Source: Comamonas sp. BIGb0124
GTDB lineage: Bacteria > Pseudomonadota > Gammaproteobacteria > Burkholderiales > Burkholderiaceae_C
Direction: 5' to 3'
NCBI RefSeq assembly: GCF_003752175.1
Contig: NZ_RJVF01000012.1
Location: 248,001 to 312,000, forward strand
Length of the DNA stretch: 64,000 bases
Shown: positions 45,568-56,390 of the stretch, piece by piece
Layout of the letters: the number at the start of each line of letters is the position of its first letter
How positions within the stretch are numbered: position 1 is the stretch's first letter
The notes under the pieces: generated by a model
Database searches by the model: none
What the model saw: the letters and a program-made list of their open reading frames with translations, nothing else
Told to the model about the DNA's origin: nothing
Made by a program: the position numbers and the translations under genes

Positions 45568-46737
45568 ATGATCGAGACCGTCCAAGCCCGCCCCGCCCCC
45601 GCCCCATCGCCCTTCGCCCCGCTGCAGAACGACACTTTCCTGCGGGCCTGCTGGCGGCAAGCCACCGATCACACGCCCATCTGGCTGATGCGGCAAGCCG
45701 GCCGTTACCTGCCCGAGTACCGCGCGACCCGCGAACGGGCCGGCAGCTTCATGGGACTGGCGACCAACAGGGACTACGCCACCGAAGTCACCCTGCAGCC
45801 CCTCGAGCGCTACCCGCTCGATGCCGCCATCCTGTTTTCCGACATCCTGACCGTGCCGGATGCCATGGGCCTGGGCCTGTCCTTCGCTGCCGGCGAGGGC
45901 CCCCGTTTCGAACGCCCGCTGCGCAGCGAAGCCGAGATTGCCCAGTTGACCGTGCCCGACCTGGACAAGCTGCGTTATGTCTTCGACGCCGTCACGTCGA
46001 TCCGCCATGCGCTCCAGGGGCGCGTGCCGCTGATCGGCTTTTCGGGCAGCCCCTGGACACTCGCCTGCTACATGGTCGAAGGCGCCGGCAGCAGCGACTA
46101 CCGGCAGATCAAGACCCTGCTCTATTCGCGCCCCGACCTCATGCATCGCATCCTGGCGGTCAATGCCGATGCCGTCGCCGCCTATCTCAATGCGCAGATC
46201 GAAGCCGGCGCACAGGCCGTCATGCTGTTCGACAGCTGGGGCGGCGTGCTGGCCGACGGCGCCTTCCAGAACTACAGCCTGTCGTATATCTCCCGCGTGC
46301 TTTCCCAGCTCAAGCGGGAACATGCAGGCGTTGCGATTCCACGCATCGTCTTCACCAAAGGCGGCGGTCTGTGGCTGCACGAGATGGCCGCCCTCGACTG
46401 CGAAGTGTTGGGTCTGGACTGGACAGTGGATCTGGCTGCCGCACGAGAGCGCGTGGGCGGAGATGCCGGCGGCCCCGGCAAGGCGCTGCAGGGCAATCTG
46501 GACCCGAACGTGCTGTTCGCCCCCCCACAACGCATCGAGGCCGAGGCCGTCCGTCTGCTCGACTCGTTCGGGCGCCCTCACACCGATCCCGCCACCAGGG
46601 GTCCGACGCACATCTTCAACCTCGGACACGGCATCAGCCAGTTCACGCCGCCTGAACATGTGACGGCGCTGGTCGAGGCCGTTCATCGCCACTCCCGCCT
46701 GCAGCGACAGCTGGCCAGGGCCGCGCAAGCCAGCTGA
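45568..46737 (+). CDS. hemE: Uroporphyrinogen III decarboxylase
   Basis: HemE converts uroporphyrinogen III to coproporphyrinogen III in heme synthesis. The 389-residue protein has the family N-terminal motif [17 protein letters not shown] near residue 42, the active-site aspartate region [27 protein letters not shown], and GWDW-like GLDWTVDL. Homologues are about 355-370 residues; here there is a short Ala/Pro-rich N-terminal extension. A GACAAT hexamer at 45556 ends 6 nt before the ATG and no Shine-Dalgarno is visible, consistent with leaderless initiation. Confidence 0.96.
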
Positions 46738-47082
46738 ACAGGCTTGCCTAGCATAAATCCAGGCGCCACCGAGGCTTCGAGGCCCCTGGCGATCGAACTT
46801 ATGCACAAAATCGACGGCCGTTCATGCGGAGCGACCTGAGCGGTCAGGCATTGGGGAGAATGATCAAAAACACATGCAATCCATTGATTTAACTGCATTT
46901 TTATATTTATCCCCACAAACGTCCACGGCATGACAATCGGGTGAAGCCAGGGCCGCAGACCGGTATCGGCAACTCCTTTCCACAAAGTTATCCACAGTTT
47001 GCGTGAATGACTTTCAAACGTTTTTAAATCAACCACTTACCGGGCTTTTTCACCAAATCGCCTGAAAGTTCCCAGCCTGACC
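46738..47082. promoter_or_regulatory. AT-rich hemE-priA gap with DnaA boxes
   Basis: This 345-bp gap contains perfect TTATNCACA DnaA boxes TTATGCACA (46799-46807) and TTATCCACA (46988-46996), plus TTATCCCCA (46907-46915, one mismatch), all on the plus strand. Between them, about 46861-46912 is A/T-rich in an otherwise GC-rich sequence and begins TGATCAAAAA. There is no gene and no dnaA/dnaN nearby in the window. It could be the priA promoter under DnaA control, or an origin-like element. Confidence 0.5.
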
Positions 47083-49278
47083 ATGCCCGCCGTCCTGCAG
47101 ATCGTCGTCCCCACTCCCGCGCACAGCGGCCTGGGCGATGCATTGAGCTACCAGGCCCCCGCCGCATTGGCGCCCGGCACCCTGGTCAGGGTCCCGTTGG
47201 GACAGCGCGAGACATTGGGCATCGTCTGGTCGGTACAAGATCCCGGGCAACAGGCCGAAGGCGGGCACGGCCCGCTGCGCGACATCGTTGCGGTGGTGGG
47301 CGATCTCTCGCCGCTGTCGGACACCTGGCGCCAGATGGTGGCCTTTGCCGCGCAGTATTACCAGCGCTCGCTGGGCGAGGTCGCCCTGGCCGCTCTGCCG
47401 CCACAGTTGCGTGAGCTCAACGCCGAACAACTGGCTCGCCGACTCAAACCCAAACCTCCGCCCAGGAAGCCCAAAAAAAACCGGCCTGCGGACGAGGTTC
47501 CGGCCACTCGCCCCGCCGAGGCGGATACGGATACGGATGCCGATGCCGGGACCGACGTCGCTGCGCAAAACGACTCTGCCGTCACCCTCACGGCCGAACA
47601 GGCTGCCGCCTTGCAGCACTTTGCCGAGGACGAGCGGCCTGCGCTGCTGTGGGGCGCCACGGGCAGCGGCAAGACGGAGGTGTACCTGCGCCTGGTCGAA
47701 GAGCTGCTGTTGCGCGACCCGTCCCATCAGGCTCTGGTGATGGTCCCCGAAATCAACCTGACACCGCAACTGGAACAGCGTTTCGTCGAACGTTTTGCAC
47801 CGGTCTATGGCGAACAGGCCGTGGTGTCGATGCACAGCGGCATGACACCCCCTCAGCGCCTCAAGAGCTGGCTGGCGGCGCACGCCGGCACGGCCCGCAT
47901 CGTGCTGGGCACCCGCATGGCGGTGTTCGCATCGATGCCGGGGCTGCGGCTGATCATCGTCGACGAAGAGCACGACCCCAGCTACAAGCAGCAGGAGGGG
48001 GCACGCTATTCGGCGCGCGACATGGCGGTCTACCGGGCTCACCAGGAAAGCCGCCACCCGGATGCCGACGGCGCCCTGCAGCCCTGCCGTGTCTTGCTGG
48101 GTTCGGCCACGCCCTCGCTCGAAAGCTGGTCTGCCTGCGAACGCGGGCGCTACCGACGTCTCGACATGCCCAGCCGGATCGGCGCGGGCGACCTGCCGAC
48201 GGTGCGCCGTGTCGACATGAACCACCAGCCCCGGCGGGCCATCATTGCGCCGCCGCTGGTGGCCGCCTTGCGAGAGCGGCTGGCCAACGGCGAGCAGAGC
48301 CTCATCTTCCTGAACCGGCGAGGGTACGCCCCCGTCCTGCACTGCGCGGACTGCGGCTGGAAAAGCGAATGCCCGCACTGCAGTGCGTTCCGGGTGTTTC
48401 ACAAGATCGACCGTACGCTGCGCTGCCACCATTGCGGTTTCACCGAACGGGTGCCGCATGCCTGCCCGGCGTGCGGCAATCTGGACATCCAGCCGCTGGG
48501 CCGAGGCACCGAACGCATCGAGGAACACCTGGCCGAACTGCTGGCGGGGGCCACCCGCGCCGACGGCCAGCCGGCCCGCATCGTGCGCATCGATGCCGAC
48601 ACGACCAAACACAAAGGCACGCTGGAGAGCCAACTGGCCCAGGTCCATGCGGGCGACGTCGATGTGCTCGTGGGCACGCAGATGGTGACCAAGGGCCACG
48701 ATTTCCGGCGGGTCACGCTGGTGGCGGCGATCAATCCCGACGGCGCGCTCTTCTCCAGCGACTTCCGGGCACCGGAGCGGCTGTTCGCCCTGCTCATGCA
48801 GGCCGGCGGGCGGGCCGGACGGGATGCCAGCTACACACGGGCCCAAGGCAGCCGCGCCGAACTCTGGATTCAGACCACCTACCCGGCCCATCCGCTGTTC
48901 GAAGCCCTCAAACGGCATGACTTCGCGTCGTTCGCCACCGAAGAACTGCGCGAAAGGCAACGGGCCGGGCTTCCCCCGGTGGCTTTCCAGGCGCTGATCC
49001 GGGCCGACGCCCGCAGCCAGGAGGTGGCGCAGGCCTTTCTCAACGATGCAGCGGCCGCCGCACAGGGCCTGCCCGGGGCCACGGAGGTCACGCTGTATCC
49101 GGCCGTCCCCATGACGATCCAGCGCGTGGCCAACGTGGAGCGGGCACAGATGCTGCTCGAGAGCCCGACGCGCATGGCCCTGCAGCGTTTCCTGGCCGCC
49201 TGGCAACCGGTGCTGCACACGACACGGCCGAAGGGACTGATCCGCTGGCTGGTCGACGTCGATCCCCTGGCGATCTGA
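47083..49278 (+). CDS. priA: Primosomal protein N' (replication restart helicase)
   Basis: PriA recognises stalled forks and reloads the replicative helicase. The 731-residue protein has an N-terminal 3' DNA-binding domain (residues 1-110), a Walker A GATGSGKTEVY near 192, DEEH in IIVDEEHDPSYKQ, the zinc-binding cysteine cluster CADCGWKSECPHC and CHHCGF with CPACG, then the helicase C domain. Between the DNA-binding domain and ATPase is a basic then acidic linker (KPKPPPRKPKKNRP, later EADTDTDADAGTD), coded by a short hexanucleotide repeat. The ATG is at 47083, without a strong ribosome-binding site. Confidence 0.96.
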   Translation: MPAVLQIVVPTPAHSGLGDALSYQAPAALAPGTLVRVPLGQRETLGIVWSVQDPGQQAEGGHGPLRDIVAVVGDLSPLSDTWRQMVAFAAQYYQRSLGEVALAALPPQLRELNAEQLARRLKPKPPPRKPKKNRPADEVPATRPAEADTDTDADAGTDVAAQNDSAVTLTAEQAAALQHFAEDERPALLWGATGSGKTEVYLRLVEELLLRDPSHQALVMVPEINLTPQLEQRFVERFAPVYGEQAVVSMHSGMTPPQRLKSWLAAHAGTARIVLGTRMAVFASMPGLRLIIVDEEHDPSYKQQEGARYSARDMAVYRAHQESRHPDADGALQPCRVLLGSATPSLESWSACERGRYRRLDMPSRIGAGDLPTVRRVDMNHQPRRAIIAPPLVAALRERLANGEQSLIFLNRRGYAPVLHCADCGWKSECPHCSAFRVFHKIDRTLRCHHCGFTERVPHACPACGNLDIQPLGRGTERIEEHLAELLAGATRADGQPARIVRIDADTTKHKGTLESQLAQVHAGDVDVLVGTQMVTKGHDFRRVTLVAAINPDGALFSSDFRAPERLFALLMQAGGRAGRDASYTRAQGSRAELWIQTTYPAHPLFEALKRHDFASFATEELRERQRAGLPPVAFQALIRADARSQEVAQAFLNDAAAAAQGLPGATEVTLYPAVPMTIQRVANVERAQMLLESPTRMALQRFLAAWQPVLHTTRPKGLIRWLVDVDPLAI

Positions 49279-54624: not shown

Positions 54625-54969
54625 TCAGGCCAGCAGCGCATCGATCAGCGCCGCGACCTCGAAATCGGCTTGCGACAGCCCTCCCACGTCATGCGTGGAC
54701 AGCTGCACGTCGCAACGGTTGAAATGCACGCCCAGATCGGGGTGGTGGTCCATGCGATGCGCCACCAGCGCCACCGCATTCACGAAGGCGATGGTCTCAT
54801 AGTAGTCGGCAAACGCAAACGACTTGTGGATATTCACATCGGCACCGTCGCCGCGCAGTTGCCAGCCCTGCACCTGGGCCAGTTGGGACACCACCTCGGT
54901 GGCCGTCGCCTTGCGCAGCGGCGCACCGCTGCGATCCTTGATCTTCAGTGCGGAAGCAGTCTTGCTCAT
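54625..54969 (-). CDS. 4a-hydroxytetrahydrobiopterin dehydratase
   Basis: Pterin-4a-carbinolamine dehydratase recycles the cofactor of aromatic amino acid hydroxylases and can assist transcription factors (PhhB/DCoH type). The 114-residue protein has the active-site histidines in HRMDHHPDLGV and the DVQLSTHDVGGLSQ segment. The ATG at 54969 is chosen; an upstream TTG would add five residues. No phenylalanine hydroxylase gene is nearby, so a moonlighting role is possible. Confidence 0.93.
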   Translation of the reverse strand: MSKTASALKIKDRSGAPLRKATATEVVSQLAQVQGWQLRGDGADVNIHKSFAFADYYETIAFVNAVALVAHRMDHHPDLGVHFNRCDVQLSTHDVGGLSQADFEVAALIDALLA

Positions 54970-55041
54970 GGCTATTCCTTTCAATCCTCTGCGGCCATCG
55001 ACATGGCCGCCTGCAGCCGGGGCCGTCGTGCCGGCCCGCGG

Positions 55042-56298
55042 TCAACCCGCCAGGTGGGCCAGCCGCTCGCTCGCCGGCGGATGCGAATAGTAGAACCGCG
55101 CAAACAGCGGGTCGGGTGTCAGTGTCGAGGCATTGTCCTCGTAAAGCTTGAGCAGCGCGCTGGTGAGGTCACGCCCATCGGTCTGGTCCATGGCATAACG
55201 ATCGGCCTCGAACTCGTGCTTGCGCGACGATGCGGCCATCACGGGCGACAGGAAGAACGTGAACACCGGCACCACGAGCATGAAGAGCAGCAGCGCCAGC
55301 GCGTCGTTGGGACCGCCCAGCGTGGGCTGGACGCCCAGGCCGGTGTAGAACCAGGTCTGCGCGGCCAGCCAGCCCAGCAGCGCGAAGCCGCCCAGGCTCA
55401 TGAGGAACATCGTGACCATGCGCTTGACGATGTGTTTGTGCCGGAAGTGCCCCAGTTCATGGGCCAGAACGGCGTCGACCTCGGCCGCGTTGAGCTTGGA
55501 CAGCAGCGTGTCGTAGAAGACCACGCGCTTGGCCGCTCCGAAACCCGTGAAATAGGCGTTGGCATGCGCACTGCGCCGGCTGCCGTCCATCACGTAGAAG
55601 CCCTGCGCCGAGAACCCGCAGCGCTGCATGAGTGCGGTGACCCGGCTCTTGAGCACTTCGTCGTCCAGCGGCTTGAACTTGTTGAACAGTGGCGCGATGA
55701 ACATGGGATAGATCACCAGCAGCAGCAGGCTGAAACCCGTCCACACGGCCCACGCCCACAGCCACCAGGCCTGCCCGGCCGCGCCCATCAGCCACAGCAT
55801 GAGGGCCGCCAGGGGCAGACCGATGAGCACGCTCAAAAAGAGTCCCTTGAGCGCATCGCCCAGCCACAGCGACACGGTCATGCGGTTGAAACCGAAGCGC
55901 TGCTCGATCACGAAGGTCTGGTAAAGCGAGAACGGCAGGTCGAGCAGTGCCGAGAGGCCGGCAAACACCCCCAGCAAAGCCAGTTGCTGCAGCATGCCGG
56001 GGCCCATCACCGCCAGCAGCATCTCGTTGACCAGATGCAGGCCTCCGCCCAGCGTCCATGCCAGCAGCATCAGCGTGCCGTACAGCAGTTCCAAGCTGCC
56101 CAGCCGCGACTTGGCGCGGGTGTAATCGGCCGCCCGCTGGTGGGCCTGCAGGCTCACGGCACCCCGGAAGGCTTCGGGCACTTCTCCGCGGTGAGCGCCC
56201 ACGTGGCGAACCTGGCGCTGCGCCAGCCACGTTTTGACCAGCACCTGCAGCACGATGGCGGCAGCCACGATTCCTGTAAATATCGACGTTTCAGACAT
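55042..56298 (-). CDS. M48-family (Ste24-like) zinc metalloprotease
   Basis: This is an inner-membrane zinc protease. The 418-residue protein has about six hydrophobic segments and the HEXXH motif in [12 protein letters not shown] near residue 280, with the third ligand glutamate in [10 protein letters not shown]. It matches the CAAX-protease/Ste24 form of bacterial M48 (larger than HtpX). On the minus strand TAGAAT lies 5 nt before the ATG, GGGGG intervening, so it may be leaderless or use GGGGG as a ribosome-binding site. It is divergent from orn. Confidence 0.93.
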
Positions 56299-56390
56299 CC
56301 CCCATTCTAGGCGGGCCGGGTGTTGCCAGATGTCCGCAGGGACATGAAGTCGCCTCCGCACCCGCCGCGCTTTCAGCGACAATGCGCCCC

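Follow-up and report, generated by a model that had tools for sequence, protein, structure and literature searches.

Detailed work on the control of DnaA by DARS and datA comes almost entirely from E. coli and its close relatives. DARS1 and DARS2 (DARS, DnaA-reactivating sequence) have a common box spacing, in which box I opposes boxes II and III (PMC5742627; PMC8682772), and the essential boxes of datA all face one way (PMC5742627). In vivo, E. coli DnaA binds double boxes that lie 2–3 bp apart, including those of DARS1, DARS2 and datA (PMC11317965). Published DARS conservation concerns Gammaproteobacteria close to E. coli; one review describes it in E. coli-proximal beta- or gamma-proteobacteria (PMC5742627), and, according to another, DARS-like sequences are present in many proteobacteria (PMC10380432). 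A literature search returned no report of a DARS or datA site at hemE-priA or in Betaproteobacteria, and an earlier mention is possible.

Scanning the E. coli sites, we obtained a DARS1 core of TAATACACA-tgg-TTATCCACA-ggaat-AGTGGATAA and a DARS2 core of TTCTTCACA-act-CTATCCACA-gaaaa-GGTGAATAA. Both have 12/14 spacing, and in both the inverted box at +14 has 1 mismatch. At the same offset, the double boxes of polA, purH, nrdA, oriC/mioC and datA have 4–6 mismatches; among the scanned E. coli double boxes, an inverted +14 box is found in DARS1 and DARS2 only. In datA, boxes 2 and 3 are 162 bp apart, with an IHF site 97 bp before box 3.

The DNA analysed here, referred to as the window, is a stretch of 64 kb (C5:248001-312000) from a genome of 4.96 Mb in 16 contigs (G000). 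Its hemE-priA gap carries the following features, with offsets given relative to box II:

45568..46737, + strand: hemE, uroporphyrinogen decarboxylase, the upstream neighbour (Pfam URO-D, 1e-128)
46799..47039, + strand: whole DnaA/IHF element, from box A to the second IHF site, conserved across Betaproteobacteria
46799..46807, + strand: box A, TTATGCACA, strong distal DnaA box at -189, in the same direction as box II
46877..46889, - strand: IHF consensus AATCAATGGATTG, a perfect WATCAANNNNTTR, at -111
46907..46915, + strand: TTATCCCCA, one-mismatch DnaA box
46976..46984, + strand: box III, CTTTCCACA, weak tandem DnaA box at -12 with 1 mismatch
46988..46996, + strand: box II, TTATCCACA, strong DnaA box, reference point 0
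47002..47010, - strand: box I, TCATTCACG, weak inverted DnaA box at +14 with two mismatches
47027..47039, + strand: second IHF consensus AATCAACCACTTA, at +39
47083..49278, + strand: priA, primosomal helicase, the downstream neighbour (Pfam PriA_3primeBD, PriA_C and Zn_ribbon_PriA)

The initial annotation had listed two perfect boxes (46799 and 46988) and a one-mismatch box (46907), all on the + strand. These are present exactly as claimed, but the list overlooked the IHF sites, the weak tandem box and the inverted box. The gap is indeed A/T-rich for a GC-rich genome (~50% G+C vs ~66% in the surrounding DNA), and the view that chance is an unlikely source of the box cluster was borne out as well: the window contains 2 perfect TTATNCACA boxes, both in this gap, where 0.22 are expected, and the boxes are conserved in relatives. 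Two perfect boxes were reached in 3 of 100 shuffles of the window, and genome-wide we counted 29 perfect DnaA boxes in 4.96 Mb, or ~0.002 expected per 345 bp. The strong evidence against a chance cluster is conservation, by which we ruled it out.

Boxes III and II form a 'double DnaA box' with a 3-bp gap (12 bp start to start). Box A has no such weak tandem partner, as the sequence at its -12 position has 6 mismatches. The one-mismatch box at 46907 has a counterpart near this position, at -81/-82, in just a few relatives and is probably accessory. Of the 29 perfect boxes in the genome, only the one at 46988 combines III, I, A and IHF. A consensus scan of the gap found no Fis consensus, including near -77/-78, and a structured RNA was dropped as a candidate for the gap after no convincing Rfam match was obtained. 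IhfA, Hda and a Fis homologue are all encoded in this genome. Further along the window, an open frame of 546 aa (54670-56307, + strand) had no Pfam match at E 0.001.

The element shares with DARS1 and DARS2 an intergenic three-box core of the same spacing (III to II 12 bp, II to inverted I 14 bp), its boxes at 46976, 46988 and 47002 (- strand) having 1, 0 and 2 mismatches, respectively. As in DARS2, IHF-like sites lie upstream of box III: those of DARS2 are one-mismatch sites at -99 and -83, and the one here is a perfect consensus at -111 that is conserved at -109..-111. In DARS1, in turn, a box with 1 mismatch lies at -189 and an IHF site with 2 mismatches at -111. These are the offsets of box A and IHF in the present element, a match that is suggestive of common descent but is not proof of it. 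The element differs from both E. coli sites in its genomic position (hemE-priA, as opposed to bioD-uvrB or rppH-mutH), in its weaker box I and in two additions, a second IHF site (+39) and a strong box at -189 that faces the same way as box II. In DARS2, moreover, the Fis consensus lies beyond the IHF site, whereas in other members of the class it lies between IHF and the core; we looked for the IHF/Fis order of E. coli DARS2 and did not find it. With no Fis consensus near IHF in the window, the element was not filed as DARS2.

The conservation of the boxes in related hemE-priA gaps, which the initial annotation had proposed to examine, proved to be strong across Betaproteobacteria. Relatives were fetched through PriA, the closest being mostly Comamonadaceae, and hemE adjoins priA in nearly all Betaproteobacteria loci that contain both genes. 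Boxes A and II, both strong and facing one direction, recur ~172-191 bp apart in Comamonadaceae, Alcaligenaceae and other Betaproteobacteria. A perfect box within the 1 kb before the PriA match was present in 66 of the 71 loci whose upstream sequence was long enough, and 53 loci carry three or all four of the accessory features. We then counted features by their offset from box II in 51 non-redundant loci, 34 of them from Comamonadaceae (the relatedness of the loci inflates the z-scores of the offsets). A + strand box with ≤2 mismatches was present at -12 in 41 of the 51 loci and a perfect IHF consensus on the - strand at -109/-110/-111 in 28; an inverted box with ≤2 mismatches occupied +14 in 12 of 51, vs a background of ~0.5. 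An IHF consensus with ≤1 mismatch occurs at +40 in 24/34 Comamonadaceae loci. Box I is degenerate in most members of this family, often with 2-5 mismatches (≤2 in 8/34). In G022, of the same genus as the genome studied here, A and II are 188 bp apart, IHF is perfect at -110 and +40, and III and I have 1 and 2 mismatches. Other Burkholderiales have a strong box I at hemE-priA (L165, L168 and L169), and 9 of 10 further sites from the same order or family sit at priA, several of them with a strong box I.

The architecture also recurs in Gammaproteobacteria, in some cases upstream of priA and in others at different loci. Among 370 genomes of the class, 156 contain the bare pair TTATNCACA-N160..180-TTATCCACA, and the reversed control pattern matches in 2; outside the class, but within the phylum, only ~10 genomes had the pair, several of them in origin-like box clusters. 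The A-II spacing of the class-wide matches peaks at 186-189, 189 being the upper limit of the search, and a second group at 174-180 is shorter by roughly one helical turn. In 40 class-wide sites chosen by the A-II pair alone, four further features stood far above other offsets, at which the background averaged 0.1-0.7 per offset: the -12 box (34/40), the inverted +14 box (27/40, 23 of these with ≤1 mismatch), IHF at -109/-110 with ≤1 mismatch (19/40) and a Fis consensus at -77/-78 (15/40). The exact core CACA-N3-TTATCCACA-N5-TGTGGRTAA occurs in 141 of 342 class genomes, and its reversed control in 0. While 14 of the 40 sites are upstream of priA, some of the remainder lie near rpmE-, thermonuclease-, polA- or hemW-like genes, as named from reading translations. 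One or two elements of this class per genome also occur away from priA at loci L171-L177 (G748, G707, G563 and G665). Two or three tandem units in one gap were seen at L022, L041, L064 and L073 and in G023, G138 and G655.

The initial annotation had also considered an origin-like element and proposed to check whether the GC-skew minimum falls at this site. In a calculation limited to C4:1-280 kb and sections of C5 and C7, the skew instead shifts from about -0.1 to +0.1 near C4:240 kb, which is the skew minimum. On the same contig we found dnaA-dnaN-gyrB (49.5 kb), parS sites (219.7-224.5 kb) and 8 perfect DnaA boxes at 235144-239777, four within 235144-235480 and four more up to 239777. The box cluster extends over ~4.6 kb around psd and a pseudouridine-synthase-like gene, ~185 kb from dnaA, and is accompanied by two TACTACTA-type DnaA-trio-like repeats and by TACTATTACTACTAA- and TACTACTACTATCC-type repeats. 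The likely oriC at C4:235-240 kb is thus delimited as follows:

G000 C4:235090-239780 (locus L013 15090-19780): likely oriC, with the box cluster and trio-like repeats, near parS and the skew minimum

The hemE-priA element does combine DnaA boxes and IHF sites with adjacent AT-rich DNA, as an origin might. However, neither a trio repeat nor a dense box array was seen in its gap, and because the skew minimum, parS and the larger box cluster lie together on another contig (C4:220-240 kb, with the element on C5), we reject an origin or origin-like role for it as extremely improbable. A local change of skew sign from negative to positive at ~60 kb of the window was dropped as an origin signal, with parS and the box cluster located elsewhere. 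The initial annotation had named an origin elsewhere together with loss of the boxes from relatives as findings that would speak against it; the origin is elsewhere, but the boxes are conserved. In single-contig relatives, the element lies about 0.25-0.85 Mb from dnaA/parS: 335 kb in G128 (contig of 4.1 Mb), 674 kb in G015 (4.3 Mb), ~440 kb in G099 (4.5 Mb) and, assuming circular contigs, ~0.25 Mb in G080 (2.6 Mb) and ~0.8 Mb in G121 (4.9 Mb), all sizes being rounded. Most priA-linked sites of other class members are <0.35 Mb from dnaA, with one at 1.1 Mb.

Among the three options that had been put forward, a datA-like site of DnaA control or titration comes closest in kind, although the box geometry fits a DARS core better. 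DnaA-ATP would here occupy box A and the III/II pair, with IHF bending the DNA between them, leading to ATP hydrolysis or to titration after initiation. The element indeed has two strong boxes of the same direction (46799 and 46988, + strand) around one IHF consensus (46877), as well as a weak box 12 bp before a strong one, and it is origin-proximal like datA; the tandem duplicated units in some genomes would suit titration, and the weak box I of Comamonadaceae points the same way. The details of datA are different, however. Its low-affinity box 7 adjoins the first strong box, whereas the weak box here adjoins the second, at 46988, and its strong boxes are 162 bp apart compared with 189 here. 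An inverted box does lie at +12 beside datA box 3, but there is none at +14 of box 2 (4 mismatches), yet the +14 box is conserved in most class-wide copies. We therefore regard a datA-like element as rather unlikely. Less probable still is a promoter controlled by DnaA and IHF that would tie the transcription of priA to the replication cycle. In its favour, priA directly follows the element in nearly all of the Betaproteobacteria examined and at the 14 other class sites mentioned above, and in E. coli the replication and repair genes under DnaA regulation include polA and nrdA (PMC11317965). The E. coli polA, purH and nrdA promoters resemble the element in that their tandem boxes are separated by 3 bp and precede a gene related to replication, but they lack the +14 inverted box (6 mismatches each), and the distance from the element to the gene is variable. 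From box II to the PriA match, with which the distance was taken, it ranges from 69 to >500 bp (in values >700 the PriA match begins inside the protein, and some of 400-550 belong to upstream copies of tandem arrays), while the internal spacing hardly changes. In Brachymonas (L086), two units stay beside hemE with a divergent gene between them and priA, leaving the element intact 1.4 kb from priA. Many class sites adjoin other genes, and no sigma-70-type promoter match was present in the hemE-priA gap. Since the distance varies, an inserted gene is tolerated and copies exist away from priA, the element is not tied to a priA promoter; such a promoter as the main role is unsupported by these observations, and as the sole role it was discarded for its variable distance and the missing promoter-like match.

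Other box sites of this genome included a second DARS-like core:

G000 C3:191924 (locus L196 5925-5933), - strand: TTGTTCACA-cag-TTATCCACA-gaaat-TGTGGGTGA

In this core, which is flanked by lpxK-like and xseA-like genes (from reading translations), boxes III and I have 1 and 2 mismatches; there is an A-like box and no IHF consensus. The two DARS-like cores of this genome, at hemE-priA on C5 with IHF and at lpxK-xseA on C3 without it, parallel DARS2 and DARS1 of E. coli. On C7, two perfect TTATCCACA boxes (358387 and 358511) lie 124 bp apart in an intergenic region (C7:358347-358519; locus L016 8347-8519), with an IHF consensus, AATCAAAGACTTA, 40 bp before the first box and the gene for a Fis homologue ~6 kb away; this pair was set aside as a DARS-like site for its geometry, which is unlike DARS. 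A further two perfect TTATCCACA boxes, in opposite directions and 29 bp apart, are located at C2:143933-143970 (locus L185), away from the likely oriC.

Judging from its box arrangement and conservation, the hemE-priA element probably controls chromosome replication from a distance, rather than being an origin or just a switch for priA. With moderate confidence, we propose that it is a non-coding, non-origin DnaA-control element of DARS type with an extra, IHF-phased box. DnaA-ADP would bind boxes II and III as a tandem pair and meet DnaA on box I head-to-head, and DNA bending by IHF would allow DnaA on box A to join the complex. ADP would then be released, and the freed DnaA could rebind ATP, providing more DnaA-ATP for initiation at an oriC that, going by the distances in relatives, would lie some 0.3-0.8 Mb away. 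In Comamonadaceae, this effect may differ in strength or direction, given the weak box I and the additional IHF site at +40. The degenerate box I of the window and of many Comamonadaceae is the weakest point of a DARS assignment; also against it are the lack of a Fis consensus at -77/-78 in the window and the same-direction box pair with IHF in between, which is a datA feature too.

As a broader and more tentative proposal, which we consider possible but somewhat less than probable, the class-wide module of box A, IHF, often Fis, and a DARS core could be ancestral to DARS1 and DARS2, and perhaps to datA, having been kept at hemE-priA in Betaproteobacteria and duplicated in tandem in some lineages, with the phased box A as a regulatory part undescribed for E. 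coli DARS. The combination of tandem boxes and an inverted +14 box is a signature by which recharging sites might be told apart from ordinary DnaA-regulated promoters. An element of fixed geometry in well over a hundred genomes offers a concrete site for study, and it would show whether the recharging of DnaA is an old and general form of replication control.
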